The notes under the pieces: model-generated
What the model was told of the DNA's origin: nothing
The model's input: only the letters and a program-made list of their open reading frames with translations
Databases searched by the model: none
Shown here: piece after piece, positions 3,848 through 17,900 of the stretch
Layout: every line of letters begins with the position of its first letter
Numbering within the stretch: position 1 is the first letter of the stretch
Made by a program: the position numbers and the translations under genes
IMG/VR virus record: IMGVR_UViG_3300042303_000050
Location: 1-37,256 of that record
Origin: a virus
DNA length: 37,256 nucleotides
Strand: one strand, 5' to 3'

Positions 3848-5197
3848 TCAATATAGCCTGATGCCTGTAGATCGCCCAGCACCTGCGTGCAATGGGTTGA
3901 ACTCACGCCAGACCAAGTAGCCGAGCGCATCGTTCATGTGGTCATGGCCGGCATCCTTGTCCGGGTCGCCCTTGTCGGTGTAGCACTGCAGCTCTAAGCA
4001 TTCGATCAGTCGCTTGCAGCGCTGGTGGATGGTGAGCCTGACTTGGCCCTTGCCGTTTTCCAGCAAAGCCTGAACAGCAGCCACGCGATCACGGACGGGA
4101 GGATTTGCGCGTGGTGACTGGTTTGACATGCCGTAGGACTCCAGGATTTGGATATCGGTCTGGCTTGCGTTAGTGCTGCGGTTGCCGCCGCTGGCGTCTG
4201 GGTAGATGTAGATGCGCCGCTGCGGATAACGCGCTTGGATCTCTTGCGCCAATGCATCGGTGTCATGGGCGCCGCTGATCTCATCAATCAGTAGCAGGCT
4301 GCTGCCGCTGCGGACGCCGATCACAGCAGACATGTTGCCAACGTTGAAATCAACGCCAATGCGCAGCGGCTCGCGGTCTAGGTCTGGCAGCTCAGCCACC
4401 ACATGCTTCTCGCGGCTGAAGCGGTCATAGATAGTGCCAGTGGTGAGGTTTACGAACTCTCCATCCAAGTACGCCCGCAGCAGGTTTGGGTCGTAGTTGG
4501 CCTCTAGCCGCTCGATAAAGTCCGGCGGCAGATGCGGGTTATCTGCTGACCGCATCTTGATGAGCTTGCGATCCGCACGCCCTTTGGCGTCCTCGCTGCC
4601 GAACGTGTTCCACATCCAGCGAAAGCCCTCCGGCGTAGATGCAGCGCCAAACTGCCGCACGTTGCCGGAGCGCAAGCGGCCAAGGATCTTAGGGAATGCC
4701 TTATTGGCAATGCTGGGCGTCACCGTGTCGATCTCATCGGCCAGCACCCATGCAAGGTTCAATCCGATGATGCGGCTCCAGTTCTCAAAACTGCGGCACA
4801 GGATCTTAGTATCGCCGCCTGGCAGGTGCAGCATGTATTCCGGCAGCGGCGACGCCCTGAACGTGTACGGGATGTCATACATCTCAAGGAAGTCATCAAA
4901 ATCCGTCATCCAAATGTCGCGAATCAGCGGACCCGTGGGCTCCATCACCGCACCGATGAAGCCCTGATTGGCCGCGGCAAGCATCACAGCCTTAGCGCAC
5001 AGCGCACGGGTCTTGCCGGCGCCATAACCGGCTGAGATGCCAATGATTTGCGTGTCACTGTCATCCACAAACGCAAGCTGGCCAGGGTGCAGGTCAGCGC
5101 GGATGCGTTGCAGCAGATCGCCCGTGTCCTCTTGCGTTGCGACATCCATAAACCCAAGCAGGCTGCCGGGTTGGCAGATGCCGGCAAGCAAGCTCAT
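3848..5197 (-). CDS. terL: Terminase large subunit
   Basis: 449 residues, ATG at 5197 overlapping the small-subunit stop as ATGA. ATPase domain: Walker A GYGAGKT at residues 57-63, Walker B VLADEID at 151-157 with catalytic Glu, and the coupling-type segment AASTPEG near 187. Nuclease domain: first acidic strand RIGVDFNVGN (Asp near 283), second LLLIDEISG, and a late HDHMNDALGYLVWREF block near 418-433 with the final Asp. The protein drives ATP-dependent DNA packaging into the prohead and cuts the concatemer. Lineage by packaging type (cos or headful) cannot be settled from these motifs alone. Length is normal for a compact phage TerL. Confidence 0.95.
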   Translation of the reverse strand: MSLLAGICQPGSLLGFMDVATQEDTGDLLQRIRADLHPGQLAFVDDSDTQIIGISAGYGAGKTRALCAKAVMLAAANQGFIGAVMEPTGPLIRDIWMTDFDDFLEMYDIPYTFRASPLPEYMLHLPGGDTKILCRSFENWSRIIGLNLAWVLADEIDTVTPSIANKAFPKILGRLRSGNVRQFGAASTPEGFRWMWNTFGSEDAKGRADRKLIKMRSADNPHLPPDFIERLEANYDPNLLRAYLDGEFVNLTTGTIYDRFSREKHVVAELPDLDREPLRIGVDFNVGNMSAVIGVRSGSSLLLIDEISGAHDTDALAQEIQARYPQRRIYIYPDASGGNRSTNASQTDIQILESYGMSNQSPRANPPVRDRVAAVQALLENGKGQVRLTIHQRCKRLIECLELQCYTDKGDPDKDAGHDHMNDALGYLVWREFNPLHAGAGRSTGIRLY

Positions 5198-5520: not shown

Positions 5521-6561
5521 TTAGCCCTTAATTTGCACAGGCATTACAAGATACGTTACACCGTCCACGCCACTAGGTGTCAACACGACGGGTGTGGTTG
5601 CCGTATTGGCGTGCAGCGTGATGGCTTCTGCAGGCTTGAACGCCTTGATGCCGTCTAGCAGGTAGTGAACGTTGAATGCCCATGCGCCATTAGCGGTGCC
5701 TTCCACCTTGAGCAGCTCTTTGCCGTTGTTGGCGTCCGATTCAGCGGTGATGGCGATGGTGCCACCTACAGCTTCCAGCTTCACCACGGAGTTGTGCGCA
5801 TCGGCAATGATGGCGACACGCTCCAAGGCGCGGGTCAGACGGCGGCGGTCAGCGGTGATGGTGCTTTTGAACTCAGCGGGTACCAGCTTGGCCACGTCTG
5901 GATAGGTGCCATCCATGATGCGGCTGTAGATGGTGATGCCATCGCCTGCGTCGATCACGGCTTGGCCTTTGGCAACGGCGATGGTGACCACGCGATCCTG
6001 CAGCAGGCGCATGGTGCTGGCGGGCAGCACGAGGTCTAGGCCATCTGGCAGATCAATGGCGTAACGCATCAGGCGATGGCCATCTGTGGCTTCCATGTGG
6101 CCGCTGCCGAGGTGGATGCCTTGGAGCATCTGCTTGCTGGCGTCGGTGCTGGCAGCTGCCATGCAGGCGCGAATGCCGGCGGATAGGTGCAGCTCGCTCG
6201 TAGCGGCGTCTACAACCGGCAGCGCGGGGTAATCCGCCGCATCAGCCGCTGCAAGCCCGTAGGAGCCCGCAGAAGCCGTCAGAGCGCCATCTGCGAGGGT
6301 CAGAGCCTCATCGCCGTCAAAGCGGCTCACAAGGCCAGCTAGCAGCCGATACGGCAGCGCTACAGCGCCATCGGTCTCTACTGCCGCTGGGATGGTGACG
6401 GTAATGCCGAGATCAAGGTTGAAGCCGGTGATGGTCATGACGCCACCAGCGGCTTGGATCAGGCAGCAATCAAGGATCGGATGGCTGCTGCGGTGGCCAA
6501 CGGCTGGCGCGATGGTGCGCAGCGCGTGATCGAGATCGGCTTGGCAGGTAACAGCTTTCAT
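5521..6561 (-). CDS. dnaN: DNA polymerase III beta sliding clamp homologue
   Basis: 346 residues, somewhat short compared with cellular clamps (about 365-390). The three-fold repeated clamp fold is visible. Domain 1: LDHALRTIAPAVGHRSSHPILDCCLI and MTITGFNLDLGITVTIP. Domain 2: MLQGIHLGSGHMEATDGHRLMRYAI, the typical LxG..l....aTDghRLa segment. Domain 3: NSVVKLEAVGGTIAITAES, ending TYLVMPVQIKG like the VMPxRL end of bacterial clamps. It would encircle DNA and tether the replicase. No polymerase gene is present in the window, so it presumably serves the host Pol III or a phage polymerase outside the window. It is encoded between the control region and the terminase genes. The ATGA overlap with the upstream small gene implies co-expression. 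Confidence 0.93.
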   Translation of the reverse strand: MKAVTCQADLDHALRTIAPAVGHRSSHPILDCCLIQAAGGVMTITGFNLDLGITVTIPAAVETDGAVALPYRLLAGLVSRFDGDEALTLADGALTASAGSYGLAAADAADYPALPVVDAATSELHLSAGIRACMAAASTDASKQMLQGIHLGSGHMEATDGHRLMRYAIDLPDGLDLVLPASTMRLLQDRVVTIAVAKGQAVIDAGDGITIYSRIMDGTYPDVAKLVPAEFKSTITADRRRLTRALERVAIIADAHNSVVKLEAVGGTIAITAESDANNGKELLKVEGTANGAWAFNVHYLLDGIKAFKPAEAITLHANTATTPVVLTPSGVDGVTYLVMPVQIKG

Positions 6562-6767
6562 TTGACGGTGGCGGCAGTGACGAGGCTGGTGATGATGCGT
6601 TCGTAATCAGCGGCGAAGCTATCCACAAGCTCCATGGGTAGCGGTACGCCGTCATCAATGGCGTTGTCGGCAATGGCTGCGGCATACGCCACTGCTTGGG
6701 TCATGGTCTCATGCAGCCGATTGATCACCGGCTGCTGCTTGGCTGGAATGTGAATGAGCGATGACAT
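6558..6767 (-). CDS. Small helical protein upstream of the clamp, unknown
   Basis: 69 residues from ATG 6767 (MSSLIHIPAKQQPVINRLHE); a TTG at 6785 would add six. The stop overlaps the clamp start (ATGA, 6558-6561), indicating translational coupling. The sequence is alanine-rich and helical (TMTQAVAYAAAIADNAI, ELVDSFAADYERIITSLV). It overlaps the 3' end of the RHH gene by about 59 bp. No domain is recognised. Its place suggests an accessory role in replication or clamp control, without direct evidence. Confidence 0.6.
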   Translation of the reverse strand: MSSLIHIPAKQQPVINRLHETMTQAVAYAAAIADNAIDDGVPLPMELVDSFAADYERIITSLVTAATVK

Positions 6768-6990
6768 ATGCAACGAGAGTTTCAACGTGTCGGCGGTTCA
6801 GGTCACCACGCATGAAGGCGCAGGCGTCCGCCACCAGCGCATGGTAAGCCGCCGTGGTCAATCCTGCAACAACCCCACCACTCAAGGCACGCTGCCGGAT
6901 CAGATGCGCACGCGGGATGCAATGCGCTGCTGCTTCAGCGTTCAACCGCGCCAGGTCATCAGCGGTGACATTGATCTTGATTTCGGGCAT
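6709..6990 (-). CDS. Ribbon-helix-helix-like DNA-binding protein
   Basis: 93 residues from ATG 6990; upstream in-frame codons run through the repeat array and are unlikely to be translated. The N-terminus is a good RHH pattern: a short beta strand (PEIKINVTAD) followed by helix DLARLNAEAAAH, a turn with IPRAHLIRQRAL and a Gly, as in Arc/MetJ/CopG-type repressors. The remaining ~55 residues are helical (VVAGLTTAAYHALVADACAF, then HVETLVAYVIAHSH). RHH dimers insert the paired strand into the major groove and often bind arrays of short repeats cooperatively. This gene starts only 31 bp from the edge of the CGGACGCAA array, which makes the array its likely binding site, for autoregulation, origin control or partition. 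Confidence 0.72.
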   Translation of the reverse strand: MPEIKINVTADDLARLNAEAAAHCIPRAHLIRQRALSGGVVAGLTTAAYHALVADACAFMRGDLNRRHVETLVAYVIAHSHSSQAAAGDQSAA

Positions 6991-7020
6991 TTCTGGTGGT
7001 GGTGTGGTGCAAATAGTAGG

Positions 7021-7380
7021 TCGGACGCAAAAACCCTGTCCACGACTGGGTTCGGACGCAAGCGGACGCAAGCCGGACGCAAAAAACCCAGTCATACCAA
7101 GGGAGGACGCAAAAACAGGGTTTTCCCTTACCCCCCCTATATGTGTGTTTTGTTCACGCCGTTACATTCCCCCTCTTGTTTCCATACCTGACTTGATTTA
7201 CCCCTGTTTGCGTCCGAACAAGAGAAAAGGTAGATAGAGACAGGGTTTTTGCGTCCGAAATTTGCGTCCGACTTGCGTCCGACCCGGACGCAACTTGCGT
7301 CCGATATCACGACCACAAGTCCAGCTTGAGACCCGAGATAAGACGCTCACGGGACTTGCCGGAGCCTCTGTCGGACGCAA
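7021..7380. repeat. Iteron-like array: 12 copies of CGGACGCAA in opposing groups (control region or replication origin)
   Basis: I count the 9-mer CGGACGCAA at 7022, 7053, 7063, 7074, 7104 (first base A, one mismatch), 7285 and 7372 on the plus strand, and its complement TTGCGTCCG at 7208, 7249, 7262, 7273 and 7295. Several neighbours are 10-11 bp apart, about one helical turn, so they lie on one DNA face. The left group points right and most of the right group points left, around a repeat-free centre (7113-7207) whose plus strand is pyrimidine-rich. A perfect 20-bp inverted repeat joins 7021-7040 and 7239-7258. A 9-bp inverted repeat, GACTGGGTT (7044-7052) with AACCCAGTC (7085-7093), encloses three copies. 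The last copy lies inside the primase gene. This intergenic stretch, about 315 bp between genes, has no convincing ORF. Candidate roles are replication origin, RHH operator or centromere-like site. Confidence 0.85.
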
Positions 7381-9685
7381 GTTTCGGAAAGATCTGGCGC
7401 AATGCCGGCACCAAAAGCCGCGGCGCCTTGACGGTGCGATCACTTGGCGGGTCCATCAGCCACCTACCTTTATCGTCCAAATAGCCCTCCTCTCGATACC
7501 ACTCCTGCAAGGCATCCCATACGCGCTTTGTTGATACTTGAGCACCCTCTTCATAGGTGAGTCCGATAGAGTCGCAGAAGTCCCAAAGATGGCAGCTGGC
7601 TCTTCTAACGTCCTGCATTGCTTGGCTTCCGGTTGTGTAATCAATGCCATCTGCAATGCTGAGCGCCATGCCTTCAAGCAACCAATTCAGGAATGATGGA
7701 CATATTTGCTGCTGGATGAAGTCGGGATCGTCCTTGAGCTTTGGGTCTGCTTGAAGGTGGTTGGGTTCGGTAGGCGTTGCCATGAAGGTCTTACGAAATT
7801 TGAATACATGAAACCGTGTTTCAATGGCAGCCTGCTCACCAGTTAGCGATGGATCCTTGTTGAGGTTGAAGACAAACAAAGACGACGGAACAAACTGCGA
7901 CTCCTGTACGCCTTTGAGTTCATATGACAGCTCCTCGCCACTGATGGCAGCCTTCAATGACTGGAGGTTGTCAATACTGACAAACTGCGAGTTTTCGCTT
8001 GACCAGTTCACTGAGGCGCCGCGTAATGGCGCGATTGGAAACTTACGGCCCTGGTCGTATTGACGGAAGTCGGCAAGCGTGCAGCTCGTGAAATTACGAC
8101 TGCCAAGAGTATCCCGCAGTGCAGTGCGGATGGTGTCCTTGCCGTTGCTGCCTTCACCGATCATCAGCACGGCACGTGGCCTGCCTCGTGTGGCGCGGTA
8201 TTTAATGAGGTCAAGCCCACTGCCGAGAATGCGTTGCAATGTGTCACGGTCACCGGGCTCTACGGCTTCAAGCAGCCGCCATAGGTGCTGGGCGTTGGCT
8301 TCAGGGTCGTAGTCGTAAGCAGTGACGTAGGTGAAGGCAACTGCAGGGCTGTGCGGCGTAAAGGTCAAATCCAGCTTGCGGCCAGACCATGCCCATGCCA
8401 CCACGCCATTGCGGCAGTTGATGGCATTGGCTGGGTTGACGTCAACCGGCTTAAGCAGTCGCCTCATCCATTGCAGCGCTTCATCCACGTAACGCGGCCT
8501 GCGCCATGGGTATGTGGTGGCGCCTTGCTGGTTGATGACATGCAGCATGGAGAGGAATGCCGCGAGCTTTGGCGCTAGCTCTTCATCCGGCTTGGCTTGG
8601 TAATGGGTGCCGCTCCAGCAGTGCAGTACGCCATCAACGCAAATCCAGCGCTCACGGGGATGGCAGAACACGTGCTCAACTGCAAGCTCTAACCATTCGG
8701 TGCCGGACTTGTCGTAAAGCTGCAGGTTGACTACTTCACCATCATCACCACCAGCAGGCTCTAGGCGGTGACGCTGCGGCGCAAGCATCGGCAGCGCTGG
8801 CCGCCAACCGTGATGACGCGCCCAGTACCAAAACGTTCCAGCATTGATGCGGTCACCACCTGATGTGGCGATTTGCTGCAGCCCTTGCCATTGCGGGCTG
8901 TGCTGCTGCATCAAGTCAATGGCCTGCTCAGCGCTATTGCAGGCTTGGATCAATCCCCAGAAGATATTGCGGTAGATGTGATAGGTGCCGGACCCTGGCA
9001 CGCGAGGTGGTATTGACGCAAGCGCTTCACGGATCTCATCAATGCCGCGCTCTGTGGGTTCTACGTAGTGCTGCGCCGGTTTTTCGTGTTGGTAATAAGC
9101 CTCATTGGGTAGAACGGCTTCAATATCGGAGACGCTGTAGCGATGGCCAGCACTGGTGACCATGCGGCACATCTCACCAAGGCTGCCATCGGACTCGGCG
9201 TAGTAGCTGCCAGGCAGCCGCATGACGCGGGATGAGTTCTTGATGCTGCGGTCTGCATCGCAGTAATCAAGCAACCGCCCTTGCACTAGCTCCCAATGGG
9301 CTGGTGTGATTGGGTCTGCTAGCACCCAGTAGCTGTGGATGGATTTACCGCCGGTATTGATCTGAAACGTTGGTTCCGGCAGCCCTAGCTCTTGCCATGC
9401 GGTGAGCTGCCATTCGCGCGGGCGATCATCCCACTCGGCAAAGAACGCACGGCAGGCTGTGATTTCAGCATTGGTGTCGCCGCCATCGTTGATGACGACA
9501 TAAACGCCGCGGCCTTCGGATTGCCACTGCTTGATCAGCGGCTTGCGAGCGCCACCTTTGCGGCCTTTGTCGTTTGGCTTGTCGGGATGCAGTCGGTGCA
9601 GAAAAGCACGCAGGCGGATGGTGCCTGCCGGTTTGCCGAGTAAGGCGATAAACCGACGGGCTTCGTCAAAATCAACTTCCTTCAT
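7307..9685 (-). CDS. Primase-helicase (primase-polymerase-like N-terminus, SF3/D5-type helicase C-terminus)
   Basis: 792 residues, ATG at 9685. The N-terminal third resembles RepB/AEP-type primase modules: GVYVVINDGG, FFAEWDD near residue 87, TGGKSIHSYWVL near 112, and SRVMRLPGSYY near 152. A middle linker precedes a superfamily 3 helicase: Walker A GEGSNGKDT at 510-518, a Walker-B-like ASVNWSSENS segment, and the sensor-like SLFVFNLNKDPSL region. The arrangement matches phage D5-type primase-helicases that lay down primers and unwind DNA at the fork. The C-terminal ~100 residues (TKRVWDALQEWYREEGYLDD) look like a winged-helix tail. It sits immediately beside the repeat array, which supports a role at an origin. 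Overlap with the upstream RHH gene is 4 bp. Confidence 0.9.
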   Translation of the reverse strand: MKEVDFDEARRFIALLGKPAGTIRLRAFLHRLHPDKPNDKGRKGGARKPLIKQWQSEGRGVYVVINDGGDTNAEITACRAFFAEWDDRPREWQLTAWQELGLPEPTFQINTGGKSIHSYWVLADPITPAHWELVQGRLLDYCDADRSIKNSSRVMRLPGSYYAESDGSLGEMCRMVTSAGHRYSVSDIEAVLPNEAYYQHEKPAQHYVEPTERGIDEIREALASIPPRVPGSGTYHIYRNIFWGLIQACNSAEQAIDLMQQHSPQWQGLQQIATSGGDRINAGTFWYWARHHGWRPALPMLAPQRHRLEPAGGDDGEVVNLQLYDKSGTEWLELAVEHVFCHPRERWICVDGVLHCWSGTHYQAKPDEELAPKLAAFLSMLHVINQQGATTYPWRRPRYVDEALQWMRRLLKPVDVNPANAINCRNGVVAWAWSGRKLDLTFTPHSPAVAFTYVTAYDYDPEANAQHLWRLLEAVEPGDRDTLQRILGSGLDLIKYRATRGRPRAVLMIGEGSNGKDTIRTALRDTLGSRNFTSCTLADFRQYDQGRKFPIAPLRGASVNWSSENSQFVSIDNLQSLKAAISGEELSYELKGVQESQFVPSSLFVFNLNKDPSLTGEQAAIETRFHVFKFRKTFMATPTEPNHLQADPKLKDDPDFIQQQICPSFLNWLLEGMALSIADGIDYTTGSQAMQDVRRASCHLWDFCDSIGLTYEEGAQVSTKRVWDALQEWYREEGYLDDKGRWLMDPPSDRTVKAPRLLVPALRQIFPKLASDRGSGKSRERLISGLKLDLWS

Positions 9686-9927: not shown

Positions 9928-10092
9928 ATGGATCACATCCCCAAAATCATTCAGATTTCAACCAACAGCAGCGATGAAGGCAAAACGTGCCTTTACGCGC
10001 TTGACAGCGATGGTGACGTATGGGATTTGCAATGGACAAGAGAGGGTTGGATTTGGGTTTGCGTTGGTTCACCTTTTAACGGTGCCCAATGA
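9928..10092 (+). CDS. Small protein, first gene of early operon, unknown
   Basis: 54 residues from ATG 9928 (MDHIPKIIQISTNSSDEGK); an in-frame start at 9904 is upstream of the likely transcription start. The second half, CLYALDSDGDVWDLQWTREG, reads like a beta-hairpin with alternating aromatic residues. The stop overlaps the next start as ATGA (10089-10092), so it is translationally coupled to the helicase-methylase. Being first behind the early promoter it may be an immediate-early host-interaction protein, but there is no direct evidence. Confidence 0.6.
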   Translation: MDHIPKIIQISTNSSDEGKTCLYALDSDGDVWDLQWTREGWIWVCVGSPFNGAQ

Positions 10093-12347
10093 CCTACCAA
10101 GAGTTCCTAGCTTCCAAATCCACTGCAGCACCTGCCGCCGGCTTTGACCCGCAGCAGTTCACCGCGCCGCTGTTCCCGTTTCAGCGGGACATCGTGACCA
10201 TGGCTTGCCGTGTTGGCAAGTTCTGCATCTGGGCTGACTGCGGCATGGGCAAAACCGCCATGCAGCTTGAGTGGGCACATCAGGTGCATCAGCACACTGG
10301 CGGCAACGTGCTGGTGCTCGCACCGCTTGCCGTGGCGCATCAAACCGTGCGCGAGGGCAGCAAGTTCGGCATCCCATGCTCGTTTGCTGCCACGCAGTCC
10401 GAGGTGGAGCCCGGCATCACGATCACCAACTACGAGAAGCTGAGCCACTTCGACCCATCCGCCTTCGACGGCGTGGTGCTAGATGAGAGCAGCATCCTCA
10501 AGGCATATACGGGCAAGATCCGCAATCAGATCATCGAGTCGTTCAGCCTCACTCCATACCGCCTGGCCTGCTCAGCCACACCAGCACCCAACGACCACAT
10601 GGAGCTTGGCAACCATGCCGAATTCATCGGCGTGATGACCCGCACTGAGATGCTGGCCATGTTTTTTGTGCATGACGGCGGCGACACCGCTAAGTGGCGG
10701 CTCAAGGGTCACGCGCGGGACAAGTTCTGGGAGTGGGTCTGCAGCTGGGCGGTGACCATCCGCAAGCCGTCAGACCTTGGCTACGAGGACGGTAACTTCA
10801 TCCTGCCGGCACTGCAGATCCAAGACTGCACGGTTGAGACGCCACGCGAGGCAACAGCAGGTGACGACGGCCAGATGGCGCTGTTTGCCATGGAGGCCCG
10901 CACGCTTAACGACCAACGCAAGGTGCGCAAGGCCAGCCTGCAGCTCCGCGTTGCAGCCGCTGCCACCCTGGCCAACAGCAACACGGATCAGTGGTTGGTG
11001 TGGTGTGACCTCAACGACGAAAGCAAGGCGCTCACTGCTGCCATCCATGGCGCTGTCGAGGTGTCTGGCTCAGACTCCGACGATCACAAGCGGCAAGCTG
11101 CTATCGACTTCCAAGACGGCAAGATCCGCGTGTTAGTTAGCAAGCCCAGCATCTTTGGTTTTGGCCTCAACTTTCAGCGGTGCCACAACGTCGCATTTGT
11201 TGGTCTGTCGCACAGCTACGAGGCGTTCTATCAAGCCATCCGTCGGTGCTGGCGATTCGGGCAAGATCAGCCCGTCAACGCTCACATCATTTACGACGTG
11301 GCAGAAGGCCGCGTGATCGACAACATCCGCCGCAAGGAAGCGGACAGCATCCAAATGGCCCAATCAATGGTTGAAATCATGAAGCAACAAACCATGGAAC
11401 AACTCAAAAAGATCCAGCGCCAAGTGGCGCCGCACATCACTGAGCACAAGTCCGGCGATGGATGGGACATGTATATGGGCGATTGCGTGGAGAGCATCAA
11501 GCAGCTCGACAGTAACTCCATCCACTACAGCATCTTCAGCCCGCCGTTCGCGTCGCTTTATACCTACAGCAACAGCGACCGCGACATGGGCAACAGCCGC
11601 ACTGAGCAGGAGTTCTTCGATCACTTCGCATTCCTTGCCAGCGAGCTGCACCGCGTGATGATGCCCGGCAGACTGATCAGCTTCCACTGCATGAATCTGC
11701 CCAGCAGCAAAGAACGCGATGGCTTCATCGGCGTGAAAGACTTCCGCGGCGACATGCTGCGCATCTTCCAGGCTGCTGGTTTCGTGTTCCATAGCGAGGT
11801 GTGCATCTGGAAGGATCCGGTCACCGCAATGCAGCGCACCAAGGCAATCGGCCTGCTGCACAAGCAAGTGCGTAAGGACTCTGCGCTCAGCCGCCAAGGC
11901 ATCCCTGACTACCTCGTCACCGTGCGCAAGCTGGGCGACAACCCAGAGCCAGTAGTCGGCCCGTTCACGGAGTTTGCTGGTGAGAATCCACCATCCAAAA
12001 GCGGCGACCCGATTAAGGACTCGATCAACATCTGGCAGCGTTACGCCAGCCCCGTGTGGATGGATATCAACCCATCCGACACGCTGCAATATCGCAGCGC
12101 ACGCGCCAATGAGGATGAACGCCACATCTGCCCGCTGCAACTCGAGGTGATCCGCCGCGGCCTGCAGCTATGGAGCAACCCAGGCGACGTGGTGCTGTCG
12201 CCGTTCGCCGGCATCGGCAGCGAGGGCTACTGCAGCATCCAAGCCGGGCGCCAGTTTGTCGGGTTTGAGCTGAAGCCTTCGTATTTCAACTGCGCGGTCA
12301 AAAACCTGACTGAGGTGGCCAGCAATCGTCAAGGAGTGCTGGTGTGA
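10089..12347 (+). CDS. SNF2-like helicase fused to beta-class DNA methyltransferase
   Basis: 752 residues. Residues 1-430 form an SF2/SNF2-type ATPase: Q-like FPFQRDIV (29-36), Walker A CGMGKT (51-56), DESS in place of DEAH (132-135), SATPAP (163-168), and motif VI YQAIRRCWRFGQ near 381-392. Residues about 455-745 form an amino-methyltransferase in beta order: MYMGDCVESIKQL at the start, catalytic SPPF (484-487), and a C-terminal AdoMet site SPFAGIGSEG (704-713) followed by FVGFELKPSYF. It would methylate adenine N6 or cytosine N4, with the ATPase remodelling or tracking DNA. Such fusions occur in other phages and protect phage DNA or aid replication. No cognate restriction gene is certain here. 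Confidence 0.9.
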   Translation: MTYQEFLASKSTAAPAAGFDPQQFTAPLFPFQRDIVTMACRVGKFCIWADCGMGKTAMQLEWAHQVHQHTGGNVLVLAPLAVAHQTVREGSKFGIPCSFAATQSEVEPGITITNYEKLSHFDPSAFDGVVLDESSILKAYTGKIRNQIIESFSLTPYRLACSATPAPNDHMELGNHAEFIGVMTRTEMLAMFFVHDGGDTAKWRLKGHARDKFWEWVCSWAVTIRKPSDLGYEDGNFILPALQIQDCTVETPREATAGDDGQMALFAMEARTLNDQRKVRKASLQLRVAAAATLANSNTDQWLVWCDLNDESKALTAAIHGAVEVSGSDSDDHKRQAAIDFQDGKIRVLVSKPSIFGFGLNFQRCHNVAFVGLSHSYEAFYQAIRRCWRFGQDQPVNAHIIYDVAEGRVIDNIRRKEADSIQMAQSMVEIMKQQTMEQLKKIQRQVAPHITEHKSGDGWDMYMGDCVESIKQLDSNSIHYSIFSPPFASLYTYSNSDRDMGNSRTEQEFFDHFAFLASELHRVMMPGRLISFHCMNLPSSKERDGFIGVKDFRGDMLRIFQAAGFVFHSEVCIWKDPVTAMQRTKAIGLLHKQVRKDSALSRQGIPDYLVTVRKLGDNPEPVVGPFTEFAGENPPSKSGDPIKDSINIWQRYASPVWMDINPSDTLQYRSARANEDERHICPLQLEVIRRGLQLWSNPGDVVLSPFAGIGSEGYCSIQAGRQFVGFELKPSYFNCAVKNLTEVASNRQGVLV

Positions 12348-17155: not shown

Positions 17156-17900
17156 CATCACGCTCTGGACACCAGAGCAAACGCAGCTGATCTCAACCAC
17201 CATTGCGCCTGGCTGCAGCAATGACGAGTTGCGCCTGTTTGCCTACGCCTGCCAGCGCACTGGACTGGATCCATTCAGCAAGCAGATCTACGCCATCAAG
17301 CGTGGCGGAAAGATGACCATCCAAGCCGGCATTGACGGCTTGCGTGCCATTGCTGAGCGCACTGGGCAACTGGATGGCAGCATCACCGAATGGTGCGGTG
17401 AAGACGGCCAGTGGACTGACGTATGGCTTGGCAGCAAGCCACCTGCCGCGGCCAAGACCACTATCTGGCGCAAGGGTGCCAACCATCCATTTACTGGTGT
17501 GGCACGCTTTGCTGACTACAACGCCGGCCAAGGCTTGTGGTCCAAGATGGGAGCTGCGATGATCGCCAAATGCTCTGAGGCATTGGCACTGCGCAAGGCG
17601 TTTCCTGCCGACATGTCCGGTGTCTACAGCACCGATGAGATGCAGCAGGCAGAAGTGGAGCCGGTCACGGTGACCGCTGCTGCTGCGCTCCCAGCAGGCG
17701 ACGCCAAGCTGTTCCAAGCCGGTAAGGCTGCTATTGCCAAAGCCGACACGCTGGACAAGCTGCAAGAGGTGGTAGCGCGCATGGATAAGCGCAAGCCCGA
17801 TCTCAGCGATGAGCAGAACGATGAGTTGCTGCGCCTTGCTGTAGAGCGCGAAGCGGTGCTATCCGACACGCCATCAGAGGATCCCTTCGCTGATGACTGA
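17145..17900 (+). CDS. bet: Single-strand annealing recombinase (Bet/RecT family)
   Basis: 251 residues, ATG 17145. Features of the phage Bet family: LFAYACQRTGLDPFSKQIYA near residue 28, MTIQAGIDGLRAIAERTGQL near 57, the VWLGSKPPAAAKTTIWRKG strand region, and WSKMGAAMIAKCSEALALRK, typical of the late core. It binds and anneals single-stranded DNA, working with the exonuclease encoded upstream and the SSB encoded downstream, in phage replication and repair of broken genomes. The C-terminal ~70 residues are charged and probably a flexible SSB- or partner-binding tail (ending PSEDPFADD). Confidence 0.92.
   Translation: MTSSITLWTPEQTQLISTTIAPGCSNDELRLFAYACQRTGLDPFSKQIYAIKRGGKMTIQAGIDGLRAIAERTGQLDGSITEWCGEDGQWTDVWLGSKPPAAAKTTIWRKGANHPFTGVARFADYNAGQGLWSKMGAAMIAKCSEALALRKAFPADMSGVYSTDEMQQAEVEPVTVTAAAALPAGDAKLFQAGKAAIAKADTLDKLQEVVARMDKRKPDLSDEQNDELLRLAVEREAVLSDTPSEDPFADD

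Follow-up and report, generated by a model that had tools for sequence, protein, structure and literature searches.

The array of short repeats found directly behind the primase-helicase gene of this phage is, with a probability of about 85%, its replication origin, at which the phage's own PrimPol-SF3 helicase would bind the iterons, open the centre of the array and prime. Comparison with related loci provides the basis for this assignment, namely the position of the array, its conservation, its mostly opposed arms, its link to the helicase, and the joint change of the repeated word and the helicase C-terminal domain. An iteron origin of the SaPI and SCCmec Cch2 kind, bound by the phage's own helicase, appears to be the best reading, and the array is most likely the origin because the SaPI/Cch2 and pRN1 precedents place the needed element 3' of the gene. 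The window comprises all 37,256 nucleotides of IMG/VR record IMGVR_UViG_3300042303_000050, and its features are collected in Table 1. A picocyanobacterial host is likely, because the terminase shares 74-79% identity with its counterparts in cultured picocyanobacterial siphophages (S-H1, KBS-S-2A and MED4-117) and the record also encodes an AbrB-like regulator and a sigma-70 gene. Among its other genes, a single 752-aa gene (10089-12347) encodes both a DEAD/ResIII-type helicase and an N6/N4 DNA methylase domain, fused in one protein.

Table 1. Features of the repeat array and of the neighbouring genes (positions in the window).
Feature	Position	Strand	Remarks
Left iteron group	7022-7112	+	CGGACGCAA at 7022-7030, 7053-7061, 7063-7071, 7074-7082; AGGACGCAA at 7104-7112
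Right iteron group	7208-7303	-	TTGCGTCCG at 7208-7216, 7249-7257, 7262-7270, 7273-7281, 7295-7303
In-gene iteron	7372-7380	+	Within 3' end of helicase gene
Perfect 20-bp inverted repeat	7021-7258		Arms 7021-7040 / 7239-7258
G-run core CATATAGGGGGGG	7131-7143	- (helicase-sense strand)	
Centre motif TGTAACGGCGTGAACA	7151-7166	-	Recognisable in many, not all, relatives
Element 2 CCCAGTCATACCAAGGG (reverse CCCTTGGTATGACTGGG)	7087-7103	+	Between two left iterons
Terminase gene	3848-5197		About 2 kb from array
DNA polymerase III sliding clamp gene	5521-6561	-	Three Pfam domains
Small RHH-type gene	6709-6990	-	Own Pfam match weak; L054 homologue matches RHH_1
PrimPol / D5_N / DUF5906 primase-helicase, 792 aa, proposed initiator	7307-9685	-	Domain matches
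C-terminal part of helicase, residues 701-792	7310-7585	-	Winged-helix-like in model, proposed iteron reader

A word count over the whole record found 11 exact copies of CGGACGCAA and one copy with a single mismatch between 7022 and 7380, in agreement with the initial annotation, which had described twelve 9-mers, one of them mismatched, within 360 bp. The rest of the record lacks exact copies, so the word is not equally frequent across the genome, and contains ten further one-mismatch matches at scattered places. Moreover, a scan of the whole record identified the array as its densest 8-mer cluster, with 11 copies in 350 bases against 4 in the runner-up. The two groups are mostly opposed, as had been proposed: all five copies of the left group, which is the far arm seen from the helicase gene, point rightward, while the right side holds five leftward and two rightward copies, one within the right group (7285-7293) and the other inside the gene. 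Start-to-start spacings are 31, 10, 11 and 30 on the left and 41, 13, 11, 12, 10 and 77 on the right; the earlier figure of 10-11 bp holds inside the tight clusters and fails elsewhere (e.g., 31, 30, 41 and 77). The perfect 20-bp inverted repeat reported before was recovered as well. The array fills the gap between the helicase gene and the small RHH-type gene (6991-7306), and only its last copy is intragenic. This copy codes for helicase residues 769-772 (LASD), which fall within the putative wing of the C-terminal domain, and is kept by all CGGACGCAA relatives listed. The centre of the array is moderately AT-rich (about 57-60%). No DnaA box lies within or beside the array, the closest one-mismatch box being at 6619, and the cumulative GC skew over the whole record gave no origin signal; it is uninformative in this respect, because it tracks gene direction. 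Rfam produced no match over the window, and the array gap has no DNA-level similarity to annotated phages.

The protein encoded next to the array combines a PrimPol domain with an SF3-type helicase. Its N-terminal PrimPol domain matches the solved S-2L PrimPol structure (E 1.7e-38), and its helicase part matches Pfam D5_N and DUF5906 above cut-off, as well as PHROG DNA primase families. A weak sequence match was also obtained to the solved 797-aa "DNA primase" 7ola/7om0 (E 0.007), which we take to be SaPI5 Rep. The full-length AlphaFold model was unusable (pLDDT 58), and residues 635-792 were modelled from 54 sequences (pTM 0.58; wing part pLDDT 70-85). The end of this model is predicted, with moderate confidence, to form helices and a beta wing, and its top PDB matches, although weak (best E 0.03), are RFX winged-helix DNA-binding domains.

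Searching IMG/VR yielded 68 loci with helicase relatives, to which an alignment query added further loci, and the full-length relatives were cut down to 26 representatives at less than 93% identity. In all 26 the primase-helicase gene has the array immediately on its 3' side; relatives having the same genes without the array, a result that the initial annotation had named as contrary to its proposal, were absent from this set. The layout is shared too: the array starts near the helicase stop, with copies pointing mostly away from the gene, followed by the centre and then by copies facing back. Most relatives carry 8-12 exact copies, fewer being present in the L054 group, and within a group the 9-mer is kept almost letter for letter, although one arm can hold both orientations. 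A reverse scan of IMG/VR for two CGGACGCAA within 30 bases gave a consistent picture, since among the matches listed the arrays of at least five copies either adjoined the helicase gene or lay at the edge of a contig or locus, beyond which the helicase would be expected, with the exception of L171. In this locus (L171:5570-5735), part of an unrelated element that also has an integrase-like gene, six CGGACGCAA copies cluster around the 3' end of a 978-aa gene, itself unrelated and primase-like by eye; since a pattern search retrieved the locus, its sharing of the word may be coincidental. The four copies of L111 belong to a repetitive coding stretch of an unrelated gene and were discarded.

We then focused on diverged relatives of the helicase, in which the layout is the same and the word is changed in all copies together. 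In L054/L065/L206-L213 and, separately, in L055/56/57/60, CGAAGGCAA replaces CGGACGCAA, and CGGAGGCAA is the array word of L215. Helicase residues were scored when invariant with CGGACGC and different in both CGAAGGC lineages. From position 740 onward 8 of 27 residues qualify, against 9 of 415 elsewhere (p 1.1e-6), or 5 of 23 and 9 of 415 (p 4e-4) once residues 768-773, the codons of the in-gene iteron and their neighbours, are left out; these p-values are a guide only, because the sites share a phylogeny and so are not independent, and the separate word changes are few (two or three). Compared with the CGGACGC group, the L054 helicase is 60% identical over residues 301-500, 86% over 501-700 and 45% over 701-792; its residues 301-700 are clearly nearer to the CGGACGC group than to the L055 group, and 701-792 are nearer to neither. 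As judged from the alignment and these two or three word changes, word-linked residues concentrate in the C-terminal, winged-helix-like domain.

Similar arrays are found behind other cyanophage primase-helicases. PrimPol-VapE helicases (Pfam PF05272) gave 465 pattern matches, and many of their loci (L220-L299) carry arrays of TAGGAACA, GTTCCAAC, GGTTGGAC or AGGTAGGA directly behind the gene and flanking a G-run, while some have no clear repeat. The equivalent 3' position is occupied by a GCCTAACCT/GGTTGGGCA array in the cultured phage S-LBS1 (L300) and by CCGTTCGG/CCGTTAGG copies at about 17.65-17.95 kb in the cultured phage S-H1 (L302), whose primase is of the zinc-ribbon/Toprim type; many S-H1 relatives (L418-L476) bear their own words at the equivalent place. 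The deposited S-LBS1 genome terminates inside the array (L300:4167-4545), and about 125 bases of the array recur at a distance of about 254 bases; either the repeats or circular permutation may have caused this during assembly. The word "repeat" is absent from the main text of the S-LBS1 paper (PMC6157547).

The initial annotation had left the choice between a replication origin and a site bound by RHH proteins. RHH proteins bind phased short repeats, which counts toward the idea that the neighbouring RHH protein coats the array, either as an operator repressing the replication operon or as a partition site segregating the genome; moreover, the RHH-type gene immediately adjoins the array, and its L054 homologue matches RHH_1. 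Nevertheless, an RHH-family HMM found no relative in the available sequence of 13 array-bearing loci (L023, L051, L053, L055, L056, L057, L060, L070, L122, L154, L183, L187 and L215), and RHH relatives also adjoin arrays of other words in L054, S-H1 and L419. The array is tied to the helicase, not to the RHH protein, because those 13 loci have arrays and no RHH relative, and we consider the operator or centromere explanation quite improbable. The origin alternative of the initial annotation gains good comparative support from the position in 26 of 26 relatives, the co-changing word and the two further families. Neither the RHH gene nor the sliding-clamp gene is beside the array in L051, L055, L056, L060 and L084, as if both genes were lost or gained jointly, with L023 seeming to be an exception. 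Packaging (pac) or transcription control could also be imagined for the array, as the terminase gene is close and the gap could hold regulatory signals. However, the array stays behind the helicase in L055, L056 and L060, where clamp and terminase do not come next, and arrays lie behind VapE-type helicases in other gene neighbourhoods, so that such a function is very hard to credit.

It could also be argued that a large stem-loop is extruded from the opposed arms, and that the helicase recognises this structure and not the word. The pRN1 plasmid, with its PrimPol-SF3-winged-helix protein, requires a stem-loop of 100 nt immediately 3' to its replication gene (PMC4234260). In agreement with such a scenario, single-stranded DNA folding of the array is far better than that of shuffles (z -6.9), and in six relatives the spacers contribute pairing beyond the iterons (z -1.3 to -5.9). 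Opposed binding sites, however, fold by themselves, and the folding potential appears to be explained largely by the opposed words. Moreover, near letter-for-letter conservation of the 9-mer and the presence of both orientations in one arm would be needless for pure structure; rather than a conserved fold without conserved sequence, as expected for a pRN1-type origin, a strongly conserved word was found. Because the word is strictly conserved, the helicase probably reads sequence, and recognition of structure seems improbable.

Besides the iterons, two elements recur in the arrays. We found a helicase-sense G-run of at least 5 in 25 of 26 relatives and in 19 of 20 PrimPol-VapE loci, as compared with 8-10% of control stretches; it is less constant in the S-H1 type, where 9 of 21 loci have a G-run, 11 a C-run and 15 either. 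In 25 of 26 representatives element 2, CCCTTGSTATGACT, occurs between iterons with at most 3 mismatches (0.02 per region in shuffled sequence), and its orientation differs between lineages. An exact 14-mer occurs in the S-H1 array (17705-17718), several further phages have CCCTTGSTATGACT(GGG) within iteron arrays built of other words, and element 2 also occurs in L313, L414, L326 and other loci. The element is not origin-specific, because many copies are intergenic without an array. This applies to many of the 110 exact IMG/VR matches of a longer 18-base form, ACCCAGTCATASCAAGGG, and to unrelated phages including ones of 158-164 kb; the intergenic copies in these array-less, cyanomyovirus-size records refuted element 2 as an origin-specific signal. 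The 14-mer occurs three times in a 163-kb contig, and the 164-kb Synechococcus phage S-B68 has a stretch resembling element 2 at 70549-70588. Rfam returned only sub-threshold matches, away from the element, at eight element-2 loci. A hairpin with a covarying outer stem was not upheld, as it showed only a weak excess over permuted flanks, and the inner CCC/GGG pair is no proof of a hairpin because it was part of the search pattern. One might speculate, and we hold it to be rather unlikely, that these origins are built in two layers. One, made of the iteron word and the helicase C-terminal domain, would be replaceable, its two parts being exchanged or re-tuned as a pair; the other, made of the G-run core and the hairpin-like CCCTTGSTATGACT element, would be fixed. 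The fixed layer would stay while the initiator type changes, and would therefore serve something host-encoded, such as priming or helicase/polymerase recruitment in picocyanobacteria.

Taking the array as an iteron origin, the following sequence of events can be proposed. The phage PrimPol-SF3 helicase would bind the 9-bp iterons through its C-terminal winged-helix-like domain, and two hexamers would probably load, one per opposed group. ATP-driven helicase action would then open the centre, at the conserved TATA/G-run segment, and the two helicases would move apart, giving rise to bidirectional forks. The fused PrimPol domain would prime for the host replicase, possibly helped by the adjacent phage clamp.

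The kind of origin is already known from the staphylococcal islands SaPI and SCCmec. What seems to be new are the opposed arms around a G-run, the several initiator types with matching words, and the shared second element; searches of open-access papers for cyanophage iterons, and for cyanophage PrimPol and origins, returned no description of such an origin. Our results provide a precise origin candidate for a large uncultured virus family and for two cultured phages (S-H1 and S-LBS1). Moreover, they offer a natural series of word/helicase pairs from which the recognition code of D5-type helicases could be read by binding assays, and they suggest that the replication modules of related phages sharing a cell could thereby stay separate.

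Among the known systems, phage P4 uses two separate sites, and its ori/crr repeats are bound by the C-terminal part of the alpha protein. Both the use of two sites and the type of primase distinguish P4 from the phage described here, although the alpha protein is also a fused primase-helicase initiator (PMC7145576), as we propose for our protein. In the Sulfolobus plasmid pRN1, the essential origin element immediately follows the gene of the PrimPol-SF3-winged-helix protein ORF904 on its 3' side (PMC4234260), and a pRN1-type origin has also been proposed for phage BIP-1. Our phage resembles pRN1 in having a PrimPol-helicase, with a winged helix predicted from the model only, an element 3' of its gene and a small regulator gene in the operon. 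It differs in that the pRN1 stem-loop shows little sequence conservation and no reported iterons, whereas the word is strongly conserved here. SaPI Rep and Cch2 use their C-terminal domains to recognise iterons that lie immediately behind their own genes, and in vitro the isolated C-terminal domain of SCCmec Cch2 binds the repeats that follow its gene (PMC7581432). Cch2 is a D5_N/Primase_Cterm helicase and ours is also of the D5_N type, with repeats downstream, but Cch2 has three 5-nt intergenic direct repeats instead of twelve 9-mers, and its primase is a separate protein. The SaPI origin is described in the passage of that paper citing Ubeda 2007 as lying downstream of rep and holding several copies of a short word (PMC7581432). 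Likewise, the array in this record, for which the origin role is inferred, is directly downstream of the helicase gene and has 12 copies of a short word; the helicase core is of the D5/SF3 type, and SaPI5 Rep is a primase-helicase fusion as well. With regard to C-terminal specificity, the word and the C-terminal residues change together here, in two or three events only. Differently from SaPI, which is a satellite island, the present record is a phage with its own structural genes and an N-terminal PrimPol, and its iterons are split by a conserved G-run into two mostly opposed groups, accompanied by element 2.
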